From Rheinheimera sp. (lineage in GTDB: Bacteria > Pseudomonadota > Gammaproteobacteria > Enterobacterales > Alteromonadaceae), in NCBI GenBank assembly GCA_008015325.1, contig SSFI01000003.1, positions 102,328-166,327 of the forward strand: 64,000 nucleotides of DNA, given 5' to 3'. A program made the translations under genes and the position numbers. The notes below the pieces were generated by a model that saw only the letters and a list, made by a program, of their open reading frames with translations, did not search any database and had not been told where the DNA came from. Shown piece after piece: positions 33,528 to 59,628 of this stretch (the stretch's first letter is position 1; each line of letters begins with the position of its first letter).

Positions 33528-33653
33528 AACTTATGTTTGCTGCCCAAAGCGGCGAGGCGCCAGCATAGCAGAAAGTTAGCGCTTTTTAAGCCTGCGCCTT
33601 TGACTTATACTTATGCCCTTTGTGACCCGCCACATGGCAAAAAGGAAGCTGGA

Positions 33654-35087
33654 TTGAGTGCTGCATCTTTTTATTTTTATGACCTGGAAACCTGGGGCGC
33701 AGACCCGAAAAAAGACCGCATAGCCCAATTTGCCGGTGTCAGAACTGATCTGGAGTTGCAGGCAACTACGCCCGCGGATATGGCATACTGCCAGTTAGCG
33801 CCCGACTATCTGCCGGCGCCAGAAGCTGTGCTCATCACCGGTATCACACCACTAAAATGCCAGCAGCATGGCCTGAGGGAAGTTGATTTTGTCCGGCAGC
33901 TGCACCAAAAACTGGCGGAACCCGGTACTTGTGTTGTTGGCTACAACAACATCCGCTTTGACGATGAAATGGTGCGCCACACCTTATTTCGCAATTATAT
34001 AGACCCCTATGCGCGCGAATGGCAAAACGGCAACAGCCGCTGGGACCTGATTGACGTGGTCAGAGCCTGTTATGCACTGCGTCCTGAAGGCATCAACTGG
34101 CCCCTGCGGGAGGATGGCAGCCCGAGTTTCCGGCTGGAAGATTTATCCAAAGCCAATCAGATAGAACACCTGCATGCCCACGATGCCAGCAGCGATGTGT
34201 ATGCCACTATCGCGCTTGCCGCCTTAATACGAAAAGCACAACCGCGATTGTTTGATTACCTGTTCCAGCACCGGCAAAAAAACGCATTAAGCGCATTGAT
34301 TGATGTTGCCGGACTCACGCCGTTAACCCACGTGTCATCGCGTTTTCCGGCGCTGCAAGGTTGTTGCAGCTGGATAGTGCCTGTTGCCTATCATCCGACC
34401 AATAAAAACGCGGTGATTTGTTTTAATTTGCAACAAGACCCCAGTTTTATGCTGCCTCTGGATGCTGCTGAAATTCGTCGCCGCTTGTATGCCAAAGCTG
34501 CCGATTTAGCAGAAGACGAACTACGACCGGCCATAAAACTGGTGCATCTGAATAAATGTCCGGTGCTGGCGCCGGCAAAAACCTTGTCTGCTGAACGGGC
34601 AGCTGAGCTTGGTATTGACCGCACGGCTTGTCTGCGTCACCTGGAAGTTGTTCGTTGCAATCAAGCGGCTTTCCGCACGTTGTTACTGGCAATTCACCAG
34701 CAAGACGAGCACGCTCCAGCTTCGCATAATCCCGATTTCAGCCTGTATCAAGGGTTTATTTCCGACCAAGATCGGCGCCTATTACCACAAGTCCACCAGA
34801 TGACCCCGCAACAGTTGGCTATCAACCCGCCGGTGTTTCAGGACGACAGATTAAATCAGCTGATGTTTCGGTTCAGGGCGCGGAATTTTCCTGAATCACT
34901 GAGTCATATCGAGCTGTCGCAGTGGCAACGATATTGTAAAGACCAACTGCAATTTGGCACTGAACAGCCAGCCCGAACACTGGATGACTTTGTTTTACAA
35001 CTGGAGTCTTGTGCTGAGCTGAAACAAGACGATGCCAAAGCGATGGCATTGCTGAAACAATTATTCAGTTATATCAGTCACATTTAA
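33654..35087 (+). CDS. sbcB: Exodeoxyribonuclease I
   Basis: A single-strand 3'-5' exonuclease. From TTG 33654 it is 477 residues (E. coli ExoI: 475) and matches along its length. The exonuclease motifs are FYDLETWGADP (ExoI), GYNNIRFDDEM (ExoII) and HDASSDVYAT (ExoIII); ALRPEGINWP is also conserved. The TTG is preceded by AAGGA at seven bases, while longer in-frame starts (33537) have a non-family N-terminus, so the start is set by this ribosome-binding site. It is divergent from the endonuclease I gene. Confidence 0.95.
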   Translation: MSAASFYFYDLETWGADPKKDRIAQFAGVRTDLELQATTPADMAYCQLAPDYLPAPEAVLITGITPLKCQQHGLREVDFVRQLHQKLAEPGTCVVGYNNIRFDDEMVRHTLFRNYIDPYAREWQNGNSRWDLIDVVRACYALRPEGINWPLREDGSPSFRLEDLSKANQIEHLHAHDASSDVYATIALAALIRKAQPRLFDYLFQHRQKNALSALIDVAGLTPLTHVSSRFPALQGCCSWIVPVAYHPTNKNAVICFNLQQDPSFMLPLDAAEIRRRLYAKAADLAEDELRPAIKLVHLNKCPVLAPAKTLSAERAAELGIDRTACLRHLEVVRCNQAAFRTLLLAIHQQDEHAPASHNPDFSLYQGFISDQDRRLLPQVHQMTPQQLAINPPVFQDDRLNQLMFRFRARNFPESLSHIELSQWQRYCKDQLQFGTEQPARTLDDFVLQLESCAELKQDDAKAMALLKQLFSYISHI

Positions 35088-35298: not shown

Positions 35299-35952
35299 AT
35301 GCAAGAGCGATCCGGGATTCAAACTAATAAACCTACACTGTCTTTGGACTCTGAGCATGGTGTTACACCTCAATCTTCACGCCGTAAATTTTTAACCAAA
35401 GCCTCTGTAGGCATTGTCGTCGCAAGCCTGCCAGCCCGCTCCGTTTGGGCCCGTGATGGTGGCGTTGCGCAATCCATCGTTGCTTCCGGGCATGGCTCAG
35501 ATTTTGCTGATGGGAAAAAAATAGCTTTACTTTCTCCCGGTTATTGGAAAAATCACTGTCAGGGTGTTTACCATTCTTATAATTTTAAAACCGTTTTTAA
35601 TGGTCTCGCTTTTGCAAAGACGTCGGGTAAATATTTGGATGATTCAACAACATTTGGAGACATACTTAAATCGAAAGGCGCAGAATTTAAAGGTCCTGGT
35701 AACATAAATTTCCATTTAATTGCGATGTATCTTAACGCGTTAAATCATGGTCAATTTGGTCTTTATTATCCTGTAGGTCAAGGTAAGCCATTTAGCTCAC
35801 CAGGGGCATTTGCTCAACACATTTATGATAAAGCTAAATCTATTAGTCCCCAGAAAGTCGGTGAAGAGTTAGCTGCAATTATTAAGACTTACCATGTCGC
35901 AGGTAAAATATATGATGACGGGTCAGGTAAAGGTAAATGCGAAAACTCTTAG
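35299..35952 (+). CDS. Tat-exported GYWKNH-motif protein, candidate substrate of the HPr-rel-A-like cassette
   Basis: A 217-residue protein whose function is not known. Residues 27-32 (SRRKFL) followed by a hydrophobic stretch ending near SVWA (about 51) form a twin-arginine signal, so it should be exported folded. The mature part has SPGYWKNH (79-86), a motif shared with secreted surface-protein domains, and the related segment HLIAMYLNALNHG (139-151). It contains two Cys, at 87 and 214. GAGG precedes the ATG at 35299. The 3' end overlaps the PqqD-like gene by up to 59 bases, so the two are translationally coupled. Base composition is visibly more AT-rich than the flanks. The role as substrate is inference from position. 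Confidence 0.75.
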   Translation: MQERSGIQTNKPTLSLDSEHGVTPQSSRRKFLTKASVGIVVASLPARSVWARDGGVAQSIVASGHGSDFADGKKIALLSPGYWKNHCQGVYHSYNFKTVFNGLAFAKTSGKYLDDSTTFGDILKSKGAEFKGPGNINFHLIAMYLNALNHGQFGLYYPVGQGKPFSSPGAFAQHIYDKAKSISPQKVGEELAAIIKTYHVAGKIYDDGSGKGKCENS

Positions 35953-36169
35953 TTGCATTTCGGCTACAGTTTCTTTGCAAATTCATAACTTTAGCGATAA
36001 TTCAGGCACTGTTCTGTTTAACTCAGGTAGCGGAGAAACCACGGTTATTTCCCTGACAGTGACGGAATTGAAACGACAAATTAAAGAGCCAGACTCGGAT
36101 CTTTGGAAAGATACTGGTCTGGCTTTCGTTTTGAGCTCCATTTTTACGGATCTAGGGATTGGTTCCTAG
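35894..36169 (+). CDS. PqqD-like small protein (HPr-rel-A type)
   Basis: Up to 91 residues. The segment SGTVLFNSGSGETTVISLTVTE (about residues 38-59) resembles the PqqD fold pattern (V-x-[FY]-N-x-x-S-G-[ED]-T), in which a strand and a Ser-Gly-Glu-Thr turn are conserved. PqqD proteins bind leader peptides of modified precursors and present them to enzymes. ATG 35894 lies inside the upstream gene; ATG 35912, with AGG eight bases before it, is an alternative. The next gene, an HprK-related kinase, starts nine bases later. I am moderately sure of the PqqD relation, which a profile search should settle. Confidence 0.6.
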   Translation: MSQVKYMMTGQVKVNAKTLSCISATVSLQIHNFSDNSGTVLFNSGSGETTVISLTVTELKRQIKEPDSDLWKDTGLAFVLSSIFTDLGIGS

Positions 36170-36178
36170 AATGACTCC

Positions 36179-37054
36179 ATGACATTTTCCCAACAGTTTT
36201 TGTCGATTCCACCTTTTTGTTTTGAACTGTCAACAGATGTTCCTTTAGTTTCAAAGAACATACGCAATATTTATCCACAATCAGTGATCAATTCGTCAGA
36301 CTGCCCCGACTACTTTTTTGCAGTCCAGTACGGGAATGGTCTGCGACGGATTATCCGACCACAAGCCAGATTTTTTAGCGATCAACATGAACCATTTAAG
36401 CCCATCAGCCTTGATTGCAGTTTTGCTTTACTAGAATGGGGTATGAATTGGTGTATCGCGACGCAGGAAATGCGCTTTGTCATCGTGCATGCTGCGGTGT
36501 TAGAAAAAGATGGCAAGGCGATTCTGTTTCCTGCACCACCGGGTTCAGGTAAAAGCACACTGACTGCCTGGCTTGCATTTCATGGCTGGCGGTTGTTATC
36601 GGATGAAATGGCGTTGCTATTGCCAGGAAGCCAAACCGTAGTGCCTTTTGTCAGACCGATTTGCCTGAAAAACAACTCAATAACGCTGGCAAAAAGCTGG
36701 TTCCCAGACGCAAGGTTTTCAACTATTGCCAGAAATACCCATAAAGGCGACGTTGTACATTTATCGCCACCGGCACACAGTTGGGAAAACAATAGGGTAC
36801 CGGCTCAGGTTGTCGCTATTGTTTTTCCCAAGTATCAACAAGAACAGCCACTTACTGTGACCCAACTGAATCAGGCTCAGGCATTTAGTGCTTTAGCCGA
36901 AAACGCATTTAATTTCAGTTTAGGTGGTCAGGCTGGCTTTGAGACCATTGTTAAGCTGGTTGAAAAATCGCAATGTTATGAAGCCTGTTACAACGATGTC
37001 GCTGAACTCGAAGAGTTTCTAACTCAGGATGTACTGCCCTATGCCAATATCTGA
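36179..37054 (+). CDS. HprK-related kinase (HPr-rel-A type)
   Basis: A 291-residue protein related to HPr kinase/phosphorylase. Residues 118-127 (PAPPGSGKST) form a Walker A loop, preceded by VIVHAAVLEKDGKAILF, and LLSDEM (139-144) is a Walker B-like acidic motif, as in the HprK core. It lacks the HprK N-terminal domain. HPr kinases phosphorylate a serine of their protein substrate. Bacteria with this cassette usually have no known sugar-PTS link for it, so a different target is likely. Downstream, the nucleotidyltransferase gene overlaps it by up to 26 bases. Confidence 0.8.
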   Translation: MTFSQQFLSIPPFCFELSTDVPLVSKNIRNIYPQSVINSSDCPDYFFAVQYGNGLRRIIRPQARFFSDQHEPFKPISLDCSFALLEWGMNWCIATQEMRFVIVHAAVLEKDGKAILFPAPPGSGKSTLTAWLAFHGWRLLSDEMALLLPGSQTVVPFVRPICLKNNSITLAKSWFPDARFSTIARNTHKGDVVHLSPPAHSWENNRVPAQVVAIVFPKYQQEQPLTVTQLNQAQAFSALAENAFNFSLGGQAGFETIVKLVEKSQCYEACYNDVAELEEFLTQDVLPYANI

Positions 37055-38177
37055 GCTGATTGTCGTTATATACCACGGCATTATTCCTGAACACCTAACC
37101 TTGTCTCAGTGGTCACAGATTGTTCGTGTGCTTCGCCATCAGCAATGTCTCGCTCGCTTAAACTGGCGCCTGCAACAGTTGGGCATCGATATCAAGTCAC
37201 TGCCGCAATTCGTGCAAAACCACTTGAAAAATGCAGAGATCATCGCGAATAAGCAAAAGCATCAAGTGCATTATGAAGCCAAGGAATTGCTGAGATTGCT
37301 GCAGCCATACACAGCTAAGCTGCTTTTTCTAAAGGGGGCAGGCTATTCGCTGGCAAATAATGCGTCTGTCGGTCATGGCCGCACTTACAGTGATATTGAC
37401 TTGCTCGTCGATAAAGCAAGCCTCCCTGACGTTGAAAAGGAACTCGCTTTAAACGGTTTTTTTGCCGAAGATTTAGACGAATATGACCAAAAGTACTACC
37501 GACAGTGGTCACATGAAATTCCTCCTTTAAGGCACGGTAGCCGCGGTACGGTTTTGGATGTGCACCACAATCTGGTCCCATTAATCTCGGGCCGTGCACC
37601 TGATATAAATTTGTTCTTCGCTCACACCCAAACTACCGAACTTGGATATACAATTTTTAAACCCGCAGCTATGTTCTTGCACAGTACTGTGCATCTGTTT
37701 CTCAATGAAGAAATAAAACATGGTTTTCGTGATCTGACAGATTTGGGACTTTTAATTGAACAATATCAAAGTGAAGAGTTTTGGCGGGAATTGGTCGAAC
37801 TTGCTATTCAAAGCAATTTTGCCCGTGAGCTCTGCCTTGCGCTCAGATACACCAACAAGATATTAGGTCAGGACATTCCAGCGTCGGTACAAACGCTGCT
37901 GTTACCTTATCTACCAGGAAAAATGGCGTTAAGATACCTTGATTTTATCTTTGTTCGTGTGTTGAGGCCAACACATCCTGTCTTTAGCGACCGGAAAGAC
38001 CAACTTGCTCAATTTCTGCTGATGACTCGGGGGCATTACCTGAAAATGCCCATGCCTATCCTGCTGAAACACACTTTTTGGAAAGGCTACAGAAACATCG
38101 CGACTACGCTGCTTGGTAGTAATTTTTGGGACAAAGCTGAACCAGATAACAATAAAGATGTGGTCGGCAGACAATAG
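37029..38177 (+). CDS. Nucleotidyltransferase-fold protein (NTP_transf_5 type)
   Basis: A 382-residue protein with the segment LFLKGAGYSLANN (about 99-111) and YSDIDLLVD (120-128), whose G-S and D-x-D pattern is that of the uncharacterised PF14907-like nucleotidyltransferases, and HEIPPLRHGSRGTVLDVHHNL in the central part. The family may transfer a nucleotide to a protein or small molecule. It overlaps the kinase gene; starts 37029 and 37041 are both possible and neither has a clear ribosome-binding site. It is the last gene of the run, followed by a 60-base gap. Confidence 0.78.
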   Translation: MYCPMPISELIVVIYHGIIPEHLTLSQWSQIVRVLRHQQCLARLNWRLQQLGIDIKSLPQFVQNHLKNAEIIANKQKHQVHYEAKELLRLLQPYTAKLLFLKGAGYSLANNASVGHGRTYSDIDLLVDKASLPDVEKELALNGFFAEDLDEYDQKYYRQWSHEIPPLRHGSRGTVLDVHHNLVPLISGRAPDINLFFAHTQTTELGYTIFKPAAMFLHSTVHLFLNEEIKHGFRDLTDLGLLIEQYQSEEFWRELVELAIQSNFARELCLALRYTNKILGQDIPASVQTLLLPYLPGKMALRYLDFIFVRVLRPTHPVFSDRKDQLAQFLLMTRGHYLKMPMPILLKHTFWKGYRNIATTLLGSNFWDKAEPDNNKDVVGRQ

Positions 38178-38237
38178 CGCAAGCATTTATCCAGTCTCAG
38201 GTGCAACTTTACTTCTTTGATAAAGGAAATCGATTCG

Positions 38238-39509
38238 ATGCAACTTTGGCTCAAAGTCCGTTATGGCGCCTTGACGCTGTTATTAACTCTGTTCCTCGTA
38301 AGCTGTGTCGCTCCGGCATTAATACTTGCGCCGCAAAGCCAGTTGATGTGGGCGTTGCTGAAACCTATGGTCGGGCTTGACCCAAAAGAAGCCAATTTAT
38401 TTAAACAACCAATAATTCAATCGCGTCTGGAGCCTTTACTTGGTAACCACTATGCCGGAGCAGTGCAATTACTGGAAACTGCTGACAAAATCCAGCAGGA
38501 AGGGCCGCTGTTTTATGTAGTCTCCAAATACACACCTGTGCCGGAACTCGCGGAAAAAGCCGGTTTTGTCTGGAACTCTGAAACCAATCAGATGGCAGTT
38601 TTATTAGTGAGCGGCGGCGCGCCACAAATTTTTGCGGAAAAACTGAATAGCGAAATCGCTGAGCAGGTACCTGTTTGGCCAGCCGAACTCAGTGATTACA
38701 CCGATCCAGCGAAGTTAAAACAACAGGCACTTGAGCAAGCGAAACAGCAAATCAGTGCTGCTGTGCCGGTGCCGGCGGCCATAGCACCGGTTGCAGACAA
38801 AGTAGAACAACTGAAGAACCTGAAACAGCAAGCAGAAAGCCAGTTACAACAAACTCAACAAGCCGTTGCCACACAAGTGTTGTCACCGGTGCATCTGGTT
38901 AAAGACCAGTTAGAACAGCAACGCGTACAAGCGGAAGATCAAGCCAAAGCGACTGTGGCGCAACCCATGAAAGCAGCACAACAACAGCTGAAACAAGCCG
39001 GGACAGAGCTGCAACAACCCGTCAAACAGCTGCAACAGCAAAGCGAACTACAACTGCAACAGACCAAAGATGACGCAAAATCATTGCTCAATCCAGCTGA
39101 ACCACCGACTGTCAGCACCGCGATTAATAATGTTGGGCTACCGCTCACTACCGGACAAACATCAACAACACTGACATCGCAAATATCTGCTACGACCAGC
39201 ACTGCCGATGCGACTGTCAAGGATGTAAAGGCCACAGCCATGCAAGCAAAAACCACGCTAGCAGAAGCCGCCACTCCGACACTTGCGGCGACCGAAGACG
39301 CCCCGGATGACGACTTAGCCGCGGAGCTGGCAGCCGAACAACAAAGCCTTGCGAGCAATCCAAGCATGAAAGTTTTGCAGCTCCAACAAGATATTGCGGC
39401 AACCGGCAGTAAGTTGAGCCAAACCGATAATGCTGCCGAAGCGCTGGAGCTAAAACACAAATTGCAACAGCTACAGGACGAGCTCAAGCGGCTGACATCC
39501 GACAAGTAG
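38238..39509 (+). CDS. Gln-rich coiled-coil lipoprotein, function unknown
   Basis: A 423-residue protein that opens with a signal and lipobox (LFLVSC, Cys at about 23), so it is probably a lipoprotein. The first ~150 residues look globular. Residues about 155-300 are Gln/Lys/Ala-rich and predicted to be long coiled coil, and residues 300-423 are low-complexity Thr/Ala-rich with a final helical segment. I do not recognise the family. AGGA lies before ATG 38238. It is on the same strand as the HPr-rel-A-like genes but separated by a 60-base gap; a link is not shown. Confidence 0.7.
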   Translation: MQLWLKVRYGALTLLLTLFLVSCVAPALILAPQSQLMWALLKPMVGLDPKEANLFKQPIIQSRLEPLLGNHYAGAVQLLETADKIQQEGPLFYVVSKYTPVPELAEKAGFVWNSETNQMAVLLVSGGAPQIFAEKLNSEIAEQVPVWPAELSDYTDPAKLKQQALEQAKQQISAAVPVPAAIAPVADKVEQLKNLKQQAESQLQQTQQAVATQVLSPVHLVKDQLEQQRVQAEDQAKATVAQPMKAAQQQLKQAGTELQQPVKQLQQQSELQLQQTKDDAKSLLNPAEPPTVSTAINNVGLPLTTGQTSTTLTSQISATTSTADATVKDVKATAMQAKTTLAEAATPTLAATEDAPDDDLAAELAAEQQSLASNPSMKVLQLQQDIAATGSKLSQTDNAAEALELKHKLQQLQDELKRLTSDK

Positions 39510-57562: not shown

Positions 57563-58249
57563 TCAGTTCCCCTGTTGTAAATGCAATTCGATATTACGGC
57601 GCGACGCACTGATATGGCGGCGCATTAAAAGTTCGGCCAATTCGCCATCACGATTGGCAATGGCATTCAGTATGGCTTTATGTTCATCAAAAGCGCGCGA
57701 GACGCGTGGCCCGGCCATGCCCATCTGTACCCGGTACATCCGCACCAGATAATAAAGTTCGTCACACAAGATATTGATGAGATATGGATTTTTGCTGGCC
57801 TGGATAATTCGGTAATGAAAATCGACGTCGCCGGCTTCCTGATAATAACTCTCGCCTTCACGCACGCGCTGCGTCGCCAGATGCTGATCGAGCAGGCTTT
57901 GCATTTGTTTGATGTCGGCATCGGACATTTGTTCTGCTGCCAGCCGGCAGGCCATGCCTTCGAGATTTTCGCGGATTTGATACAAAGAAATTAAACCTTG
58001 TGGCGTCAGTTTCACCACCCGAGCGCCGGCATTCGGAATACGTTCAATCAGGTGGCAACGCTCCAGACGGGCTAAAGCTTCACGTAGTGGTGCACGACTT
58101 AAATCAAACTGCTTCGCCAGTTCTGGCTCGGAAATTTTGCTGCCAGGCGCTATTTCGCCGGCAACTATAGCGCGCTGGATCTCCAGCAGCACTCTGTCAG
58201 CGGCAGTAATAGGTTCTTTTTGCATGAGAAAATCGCAATCTGTCGACAT
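57563..58249 (-). CDS. prpR: GntR-family (FCD) regulator of the propionate operon
   Basis: A 228-residue GntR-type repressor or activator. The N-terminal winged helix has [33 protein letters not shown] (about 40-72), and the C-terminal FCD domain has the metal-binding [16 protein letters not shown] and DEHKAI. It is the first gene of the operon and ends one base before prpB, so it is very probably its own operon's regulator, sensing 2-methylcitrate or a related intermediate. The name prpR is used for this GntR-type regulator by analogy; it is not the sigma-54 PrpR of E. coli. Confidence 0.88.
58241..58248. promoter_or_regulatory. Half-matching operator at prpR start
   Basis: TGTCGACA is an 8-base palindrome identical to the core of the operator at 58312. 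It overlaps the prpR start codon. Confidence 0.45.
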
Positions 58250-58266
58250 AAACTTACCATGCTGCA

Positions 58267-58295
58267 GTTTTAGAGGCTTTTTTCAGCTAAGTCAA
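58267..58295 (-). promoter_or_regulatory. Promoter candidate for prpR-prpBC-acnD-prpF
   Basis: On the minus strand TTGACT and TAAAAC are 17 bases apart. It would place transcription start about 11 bases before the start codon at 58249, a very short leader. Confidence 0.5.
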
Positions 58296-58311
58296 GCCAG
58301 ACAAAAGTAGT

Positions 58312-58323
58312 ATTGTCGACAAT
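58312..58323. promoter_or_regulatory. GntR-type operator (ATTGTCGACAAT)
   Basis: A perfect 12-base palindrome upstream of the promoter candidate. GntR/FCD regulators bind short symmetric sites of this type. With the copy of its core at 58241-58248 it flanks the promoter. Confidence 0.7.
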
Positions 58324-58504
58324 TATGCGATGAAAAGCGTTTTTTTGGCAAGTTGCATACACAGACACTTGTAACAAATTTCTTCCAATTCAACTAAAAC
58401 TCAATGGCAATAATTTTTTTATTAGAATATTTGGTGATTAAAAGTTAAATGGATAAGTGTTAATTAATATGTCAACGATAAGTAGCATATTTAGGGAAAC
58501 CTAA

Positions 58505-58770
58505 AGCAAAGCCTTAGATAATGCTTTGCTGACTGGATAAAGCTGGGGATAACCTATGAATAAACTGGGTGAAAGCTGTGTCGCAATTACAGATTGTTTA
58601 CCAATTCAACATTTTATTACTCACGTCTCTCTGCGCAAAAAATGTGCACTTAGCTACACTGATTTTATCTGTCTGGTGCCATTATCTGCACCTCTCCCTC
58701 TAGCGCACGGCTCATCCTTGAGCCATTCCCCTAAGCCCGGAACAATGCGGATTCGTTCTGGGCTTTTTTT
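58505..58770 (+). ncRNA. Candidate structured small RNA in a gene-poor gap
   Basis: Plus-strand sequence of about 266 bases with three hairpins: AGCAAAGC/GCTTTGCT (58505-58530), GGCTCA/TGAGCC (58709-58724) and an 11-bp terminator stem at 58733-58770 that ends in T7. Neighbours on both sides are transcribed leftwards (minus strand), so the plus-strand terminator has no protein gene to serve. A reading frame (58556-58822) lies within but runs through the terminator, so it is probably not a normal gene, although a short peptide is not excluded. No promoter could be assigned with confidence. Confidence 0.4.
58733..58770 (+). terminator. Intrinsic terminator of small-RNA candidate
   Basis: AAGCCCGGAAC and GTTCTGGGCTT pair over 11 positions (one G-T) around an 11-base loop and run into TTTTTTT. 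Confidence 0.85.
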
Positions 58771-58851
58771 CTTTTTGCGACATTATTTACCGGCAGGTTT
58801 GCTGAAAAGTCTGCGGCAATAGCATCGCAAAACAGCTGCTTATTTGCGGGC

Positions 58852-59628
58852 TCAGACGTTGGTGAGCGGAAATAACCGGCGGAAATTCTGACTGGTTTGT
58901 TCGGCTAATAATTCGACGCCGACCTGCCGTTCACGGGCGATGGCAGCAGCAACAGCGGCGACATAAGCTGGCTGATTGGTCTTGCCACGATATGGCACTG
59001 GCGCCAGATAAGGTGAGTCCGTTTCAATCAATAACCTGTCTGATGGTACCTGCCGCACCACTTCCCGCAGCGCGTCAGCGTTACGAAAGGTCATAATGCC
59101 GGAAAACGAAATATAAAAGCCTAAATCCAGCGCCGCTTTGGCGGTATCCCAATCTTCGGTAAAACAGTGCAACACACCGCCACAATCCTGCGCCTGCTCG
59201 CTTCGCAGCAAGGCTAAAGTATCAGCCCGCGCATCCCGGGTATGCACAATCAGCGGTCTATTCAGCTGACGGGCCACCGCAATATGGGCGGCAAATGCGG
59301 TTTGCTGGGTGCTTTTGTTGTCCGGGCTGTAAAAATAATCCAGACCGGTTTCGCCTACTGCCACCACTGAATCGCTCTGGCATAAACGTAATAAATCGTC
59401 GTGGCTAAAACCCAGTTGTTGATGCAGCGGATGTTCACCACACGAGACAGAGACTTGCGGATAGTCTTTGACCAGCGCAGCCATCGCCGGAAACTCCTGC
59501 AAACTAACACTGACACACAGCATATGGCTGACTTGGGCAGTGGCTGCGGCAGCGAGAACTGCCGGTAAATCCATCCCGAGTTTATCCAGTTCAAGACGGT
59601 CAAGGTGGCAATGGGAATCAATAAACAA
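58852..59628 (-). CDS. tatD: TatD-family metal-dependent hydrolase (YcfH-like)
   Basis: A 258-residue TIM-barrel metallohydrolase of the TatD family. Motifs are DSHCHLD (metal ligands), GETGLDYFYSPD, HTRDARADTLALL, HCFTEDWD and ETDSPYLAP. Of the E. coli paralogues it is closest to YcfH, a gene beside holB, which fits this location. The start is taken as TTG 59628, with GGAG six bases upstream and giving an LFIDSHCHLD N-terminus like E. coli YcfH; ATG 59655 is a longer alternative without a good ribosome-binding site. It is probably a DNase or D-aminoacyl-tRNA deacylase-like repair enzyme. Confidence 0.9.
   Translation of the reverse strand: MFIDSHCHLDRLELDKLGMDLPAVLAAAATAQVSHMLCVSVSLQEFPAMAALVKDYPQVSVSCGEHPLHQQLGFSHDDLLRLCQSDSVVAVGETGLDYFYSPDNKSTQQTAFAAHIAVARQLNRPLIVHTRDARADTLALLRSEQAQDCGGVLHCFTEDWDTAKAALDLGFYISFSGIMTFRNADALREVVRQVPSDRLLIETDSPYLAPVPYRGKTNQPAYVAAVAAAIARERQVGVELLAEQTSQNFRRLFPLTNV

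Follow-up and report, generated by a model that had tools for sequence, protein, structure and literature searches.

What does an HPr-rel-A system modify? In the sources consulted, HPr-rel-A (families TIGR04352 and TIGR04353) has so far existed as a name in databases, with no substrate or chemistry attached. The question is raised by four genes in a stretch of 64,000 nucleotides of Rheinheimera sp. DNA (GenBank assembly GCA_008015325.1, contig SSFI01000003.1, positions 102,328 to 166,327), here called the window, whose first nucleotide is position 1. A sequence-only reading had seen in these genes a protein with a twin-arginine (Tat) export signal, a small PqqD-like protein, a kinase of the HprK fold and a nucleotidyltransferase (NTase). 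Comparison with related loci shows that the Tat protein belongs as a rule to the HPr-rel-A-like cassette, and that its core is an exchangeable module: the signal and a serine motif stay, and the core changes in one block. Reasoning by analogy, we propose with moderate confidence that the four genes form an HPr-rel-A-like cassette in which the kinase phosphorylates the serine motif behind the Tat signal, and that the Tat route would carry the protein out afterwards.

The four genes and their linkage

The features of the cassette are given below; GC denotes guanine plus cytosine content, pLDDT the predicted local distance difference test score of the structure models, RRE a recognition element for precursors of ribosomally synthesized and modified peptides (RiPPs), and ORF an open reading frame.

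35299..35952, plus strand: Tat-signal protein, 217 amino acids, the protein proposed to be modified and exported (ORF; 61 similar proteins besides itself)
35299..35499, plus strand: constant part of that protein, with N-region, RRKFL Tat signal and serine motif SIVASGHGS (S59, S63, S67), from alignment, GC and pLDDT
35500..35952, plus strand: variable core with GYWKNH, predicted folded (GC 0.364; pLDDT)
35894..36169, plus strand: PqqD/RRE-like small protein, 91 amino acids, starting at ATG 35894 or TTG ~35975 (hhalign; predicted topology)
36179..37054, plus strand: HprK-related kinase A, 291 amino acids (TIGR04352)
37029..38177, plus strand: nucleotidyltransferase-fold protein, 382 amino acids (PF14907)

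The Tat protein accompanies the kinase far beyond this genome. Kinases passing the TIGR04352 cut-off were found in 47 of 147 relatives and in 61 of 398 genomes sampled from the phylum, giving 101 distinct kinases after the 7 shared ones are counted once (47 from near relatives, 54 from the phylum sample). One of them (L101) could not be placed. For 85 of the 100 placed kinases, an ORF that combines RRx[FLIVMW] with a hydrophobic stretch ends no more than 1.3 kb upstream; the same pattern is met in 5/100 cases on the reverse strand and in 5/97 downstream. With three loci at contig edges (L072, L135, L142) and one broken locus (L079) set aside, and with four Tat ORFs added by eye (L078, L111, L138, L140), 89 of the 96 assessable kinases have a Tat-signal ORF just upstream. 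A PqqD-like gene is present in 87/96 loci, an NTase in 70/96 and all four genes in 63/96, the profiles for PqqD and NTase being partly built from the same sequences.

The linkage also holds when it is approached from the Tat protein. The family to which the window protein belongs occurs in 31 of the 147 relatives, in every case followed by a kinase on the same strand after 244–888 bp; the 93 relatives lacking a kinase match lack this family as well. Among 395 genomes from the window's taxonomic family, 108 carry a match to the Tat profile and 144 a kinase over the cut-off; 102 of the 113 matches, spread over 99 of the 108 genomes, have such a kinase after them on the same strand at most 1017 bp away, a count that leaves out kinases in genomes lacking a Tat match. 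At E 1e-6 or better, 81/83 matches stand beside a kinase, and the two exceptions are a fragment at a contig end and a match of 37 codons. The earlier suggestion that the Tat protein belongs with the other three genes is thus borne out by the neighbourhood comparison. These 395-genome counts firm up the linkage and say nothing on chemistry, and therefore leave the odds of phosphorylation as they were.

The identity of the genes is secure to different degrees. Four plus-strand ORFs lie at 35299–38177 where the sequence-only reading had put them, and their junctions are as described, apart from the start of the second gene. The overlap of the first two genes is 59 bases if ATG 35894 is that start. 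Since most relatives of the second gene start well over ten codons later, and since residues 1–25 have a pLDDT below 50, the TTG at ~35975 is a serious alternative start, which puts the overlap in doubt. The kinase scores 316 bits against TIGR04352 over residues 8–282 (cut-off 200), and its GSGKS, H104, K125, D142 and K164 are invariant or nearly so in 28 sequences. The NTase scores 140.7 bits against PF14907 (E 8e-41; cut-off 31.2) and keeps SDIDLLVD, H162, D177, H179 and H180 in the 44 sequences, window included, that were aligned from 79 NTase-slot ORFs; PF14907 is matched by 41 of the 44 ORFs scanned. Both enzyme assignments hold. The PqqD assignment stands in part: it is backed by a profile-profile comparison (hhalign) of 25 window-type with 18 better-preserved sequences (E 3.4e-6, probability 88%) and by a predicted topology of a leading helix of low confidence, three strands and three helices, and it falls under the curated cut-off of TIGR04353. 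For the Tat signal the TIGR01409 score is weak (13.6 bits, cut-off 16.7), yet R28, R29 and F31 never vary among 49 aligned proteins, drawn from the 62 of the similarity search, and the signal proposed before is upheld; export by the Tat route is predicted from it. No Pfam family matches the Tat protein at E 1.

The annotated HPr-rel-A copies resemble the window in organization. The window kinase passes the curated cut-off of the system, the gene order is that of a Sphingomonas plasmid copy (hypothetical protein, PqqD, kinase, NTase), and a PF14907 NTase adjoins the kinase in the window as in the annotated copies. The first gene is named only 'hypothetical protein' in the two annotated plasmid copies, of which the Vibrio one lists no gene in the PqqD slot. 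The score of the window PqqD under the TIGR04353 cut-off is the difference.

Several variants of the cassette were observed along the way. One genome contains two loci of the Tat family (G593:C1:2338749-2339330 and 2898895-2899488), each with its own kinase downstream. In L079 (G056) the cassette is broken, with the kinase and the Tat gene both split over frames. Five loci of the genus (L069, L070, L071, L073, L075) have a different type of Tat protein and a PqqD slot shrunk to 59–62 codons. In 23 of 72 wide-flank loci (e.g. L074, L078, L111, L158) the neighbourhood of the cassette includes a Trypsin_2-type protease gene, in most cases upstream of the Tat gene, as judged with a profile made from four of the loci counted; the window contains none.

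A constant serine motif and an exchangeable core

Behind the signal of the Tat protein stands a conserved serine motif, S-x3-S-G-x2-S, a feature absent from the sequence-only reading. S59, S63 and S67 are invariant in the 49 aligned window-type sequences, window included, and among 36 non-redundant sequences, out of 44 from the wider relatives, the three serine columns past the signal are kept in 34, 32 and 31. In the structure model of the window protein, the pLDDT is below 50 up to residue 67, single residues excepted, and residues 71–200 are mostly helical with a mean pLDDT of 84–97 per block of ten. The motif is therefore predicted to be an unfolded link between the signal and a folded domain. 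By analogy with the systems described below it is the likely phosphorylation site, and S63, the most conserved serine column in the wider family, would be the best candidate residue.

The predicted folded domain behaves in a different way. The window core matches no recognised family in Pfam at E 1 and gives no significant fold match in the PDB, and in other groups of the phylum different mature parts follow the Tat signal. All 62 similar proteins were compared in pairs, of which 57 have leaders at least 90% identical; of the 25 listed for lowest core identity, 16 have cores at 46% or less. Among the pairs listed, four with identical leaders of 55–67 residues have cores only 29–36% identical: P0001/P0024, P0026/P0042, P0027/P0042 and P0028/P0033, where P0026 and P0042 are Alishewanella proteins by name and P0033 likewise an Alkalimonas protein by name. 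P0001 is the window protein; its 67-residue leader is identical to that of P0024, and the cores are 36% identical.

At the DNA level the change of core, which the sequence-only reading did not contain, is abrupt. Alishewanella jeotgali KCTC 22429 (L146) and A. aestuarii B11 (L161) are 95.9% identical up to L146:5128 and 95.1% identical from 5926, and the ~800 bp in between show no match, with 10–27 matching bases per 40-bp window. This block begins 5 bp past the last serine codon of the motif and takes in the core, the complete PqqD gene and the first ~55 kinase codons; its GC is 0.389 in A. aestuarii, where the surroundings are ~0.51, and 0.495 in A. jeotgali. In Paraglaciecola (L155/L158) the same 5′ boundary is found, 9 bp past the motif, and the core alone changes abruptly between a leader 84–88% alike and flanks of 82–88%. 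L158 has ~3.2 kb of extra DNA relative to L155, from the left flank to the Tat gene.

The window itself carries a trace of the same boundary. Its mean GC is 0.519, and the cassette lies below it unevenly: 0.522 in the signal and motif, 0.364 in the core, 0.419 in PqqD, 0.401 at the start of the kinase, 0.463 in the rest of the kinase and 0.447 in the NTase. The AT-richness therefore begins within gene 1, at the boundary of motif and core, and not at the gene start. An AT-rich cassette as previously described is correct as far as the comparison with the window mean goes, and incorrect for the head of gene 1. Stretches of 450 bp as AT-rich as the core number 4 among 1271. A second AT-rich stretch lies at 58001–59000 (GC 0.447).

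The cassette may also be read in other ways. The kinase, PqqD and NTase might modify the folded core or the C-terminus, the motif being a spacer or a determinant of Tat export or processing. The Alishewanella block, in which PqqD and the first ~55 kinase codons change together with the core, speaks for this, as does the C-terminal position of the phosphorylated serine in lasso precursors, according to a review (PMC9266682). In Paraglaciecola, however, the change is confined to the core, and of the 15 invariant columns in the 49 sequences the core holds 2 (A147, P158), against 3 contributed by the motif serines. We consider modification of the core unlikely.

A polymorphic toxin with its immunity protein would also have a constant head for export, a variable toxic tail and a small gene right behind, which can change with the tail as in Alishewanella; a core matching no Pfam family and no PDB fold would suit a toxin too. 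The small gene, though, has profile-profile similarity to the PqqD of other cassettes and did not change with the core in Paraglaciecola, and a toxin leaves the kinase and the NTase without explanation. This reading is highly improbable.

Distances between the parts of the cassette in 43 loci, with the kinase-catalytic and NTase distances removed, indicate what PqqD follows. Core and PqqD distances correlate (partial r 0.32, p 0.001), which is in line with a modified core, and core and kinase N-terminal distances do so as well (r 0.19, p 0.001). The leader distance correlates with neither PqqD (r -0.01, p 0.61) nor, to more than a bare degree, the core (r 0.06, p 0.04). The observed pattern suggests that PqqD follows the core and not the leader, and the previous idea that PqqD simply holds the Tat leader is not supported in that form. 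PqqD lies between core and kinase, however, and recombination alone could carry it along.

Proposed chemistry and its precedents

The proposed phosphorylation of the motif draws on two kinds of RiPPs. The LPP peptides of Bacillota (LppA/K/B/S/D/N) are made with a discrete RRE, an HprK-like kinase and an NTP transferase, a trio resembling the PqqD-like protein, kinase and NTase of the window. Phosphorylation there depends on LppK and falls on S3 of the LPP core, close to where the released part begins; products carrying one to four phosphates were observed (PMC13381572). Likewise, kinases of lasso peptides (PadeK-type and PsmK, for paeninodin and pseudomycoidin) phosphorylate the C-terminal serine of a ribosomal precursor, and in pseudomycoidin the nucleotidyltransferase homologue PsmN is needed for a hexose on that serine (PMC9266682). 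Given that related trios in Bacillota act on precursor serines, a similar chemistry may be expected on the serine motif.

The likeness has its bounds. LPP has a released peptide of 45 residues, an SpI-type peptidase of its own and an export pump in the cluster (PMC13381572), and lasso systems have lasso-forming enzymes besides the C-terminal site (PMC9266682); no lasso-forming enzymes are apparent, read by eye, among the ORFs around the window cassette. The phosphorylated RiPPs of both kinds come from short precursors, unlike the window protein with its 217 residues, its predicted folded domain at 71–200 and its Tat signal. In the open-licence literature no paper was found on HPr-rel-A by name or accession (most subscription journals lie outside that scope), on a twin-arginine signal paired with an RRE and a kinase, on the trio of HprK, PqqD and nucleotidyltransferase, on HprK with a lasso peptide and a nucleotidyltransferase, or on an exosortase with an HPr kinase and PqqD. 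Names related to the accessions led, through 'PqqD-related', to a paper on cacaoidin, and the pairing of an RRE with an HPr kinase led to two on lasso peptides.

The steps may be envisaged as follows. The PqqD/RRE-like protein would dock the precursor onto the kinase, which would add one or more phosphates to a motif serine in the predicted unfolded stretch. The PF14907 enzyme may then put a nucleotide or a sugar on that phosphate. The core would fold in the cytoplasm before Tat export, with a predicted signal peptidase cut near SVWA, read by eye. Of the two modifications that had been suggested for the Tat protein, phosphorylation or nucleotidylation, phosphorylation is on these analogies the most likely chemistry. 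The observed block change of the core, alone or with PqqD and ~55 kinase codons, would have arisen by homologous recombination, and the exported protein may be under pressure to differ between strains.

Alternatively, the trio could make or modify another substrate, with the Tat protein as a secreted companion that binds the product or makes use of it. Some distant loci (flanks of L109-L128) lie beside exopolysaccharide genes, and TIGR03108, the XrtA/PEP-CTERM exopolysaccharide amidotransferase, is matched at E 1e-20 or better by 5 of 65 neighbour proteins of 20 distant loci, so that a role linked to polysaccharide is possible. Two things count against another substrate, namely the close linkage to the upstream Tat gene and the fact that a trio of the same make-up acts on ribosomal precursors (PMC13381572), and we regard it as very unlikely. 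Polysaccharide genes surround the LPP cluster of P. alginolyticus as well (PMC13381572). At the same threshold of E 1e-20, 5 of the 65 neighbour proteins have a match to PhoR-type histidine kinases.

Against phosphorylation of the motif in an exported protein with an exchangeable core, a number of observations must be set. Each chemical step rests on analogy, and in the Bacillota system deletion of lppN changed no product (PMC13381572). The window PqqD reaches 13.4 bits (E 0.12) against the TIGR04353 cut-off of 35; it is not among the 33 of 66 PqqD-slot proteins (66 aligned of 81 kept, from 96 found) that match this family at E 0.01 or better, and the slot holds only 59–62 codons in five other members of the genus. 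Seven of the 96 kinases have no Tat ORF (L096, L097, L098, L104, L119, L125, L130), and the NTase is undetected in 26/96 loci. Eleven of the 113 Tat-profile matches lack a kinase beside them; one of these, G600, is a fragment at a contig end, and the remaining ten, weak matches of 35–40 codons (E 6e-7 to 9e-4), are probably other Tat signals. As for the core, a fifth pair with identical leaders (P0030/P0038) has cores 69% identical, and of the 9 genome pairs whose leader DNA is 80% or more identical, only 2 show a block change. The Paraglaciecola core changed without PqqD, the stretch from PqqD to the kinase being 72–90% identical per 60-bp window. The GC step in the window is not unique, an equally steep one occurring at 99 of 63350 positions. 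Finally, core and NTase distances are also correlated (partial r 0.45), and core and enzymes thus share some history.

Genomic site and biological meaning

Two neighbouring genes mark the place of the cassette.

33537..35087, plus strand: sbcB-type exonuclease, the left neighbour marking the fixed site (Pfam Exonuc_X-T_C, RNase_T)
38217..39509, plus strand: right neighbour of the site, 430 amino acids, whose homologue follows sbcB in cassette-free genomes

An sbcB match is present in 22 of 22 genomes of the genus, two of them partial. In 11 of the 12 genus genomes without the kinase, the homologue of the right neighbour lies within ~0.4 kb after sbcB, which represents the empty site. The sbcB identity is 55–58% for genomes without the cassette and 60–88% among the full-length matches of those with it. 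Since the cassette-free genomes are thus the more distant ones in sbcB, the distribution of the cassette tracks the phylogeny of the genus to some extent at least. The sequence-only reading had taken the base composition to suggest that the cassette was gained by transfer; with a fixed slot beside sbcB and a composition break inside gene 1, a transfer of all four genes together is too simple an account.

The cassette is real, widespread and understudied: it belongs with the RRE-kinase-transferase systems and adds to them a Tat-signal partner whose core is exchangeable. The block change right after the serine motif is a natural chimera and marks the divide between the signal, the likely modification site and the cargo. 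Since a Tat ORF beside 89 of 96 kinases provides a likely substrate with a candidate site, the function of HPr-rel-A becomes directly testable. If the proposal is true, the phosphorylating RRE-kinase-transferase trio of Bacillota peptides would extend to folded proteins exported by Tat. As a wider and quite tentative view, HPr-rel-A may be a phylum-wide machine that phosphate-tags Tat-exported proteins, in the window's family a strain-identity protein whose constant signal and phosphorylated motif bear an exchangeable folded domain, for which PqqD and the N-terminal part of the kinase would serve as co-travelling specificity parts.

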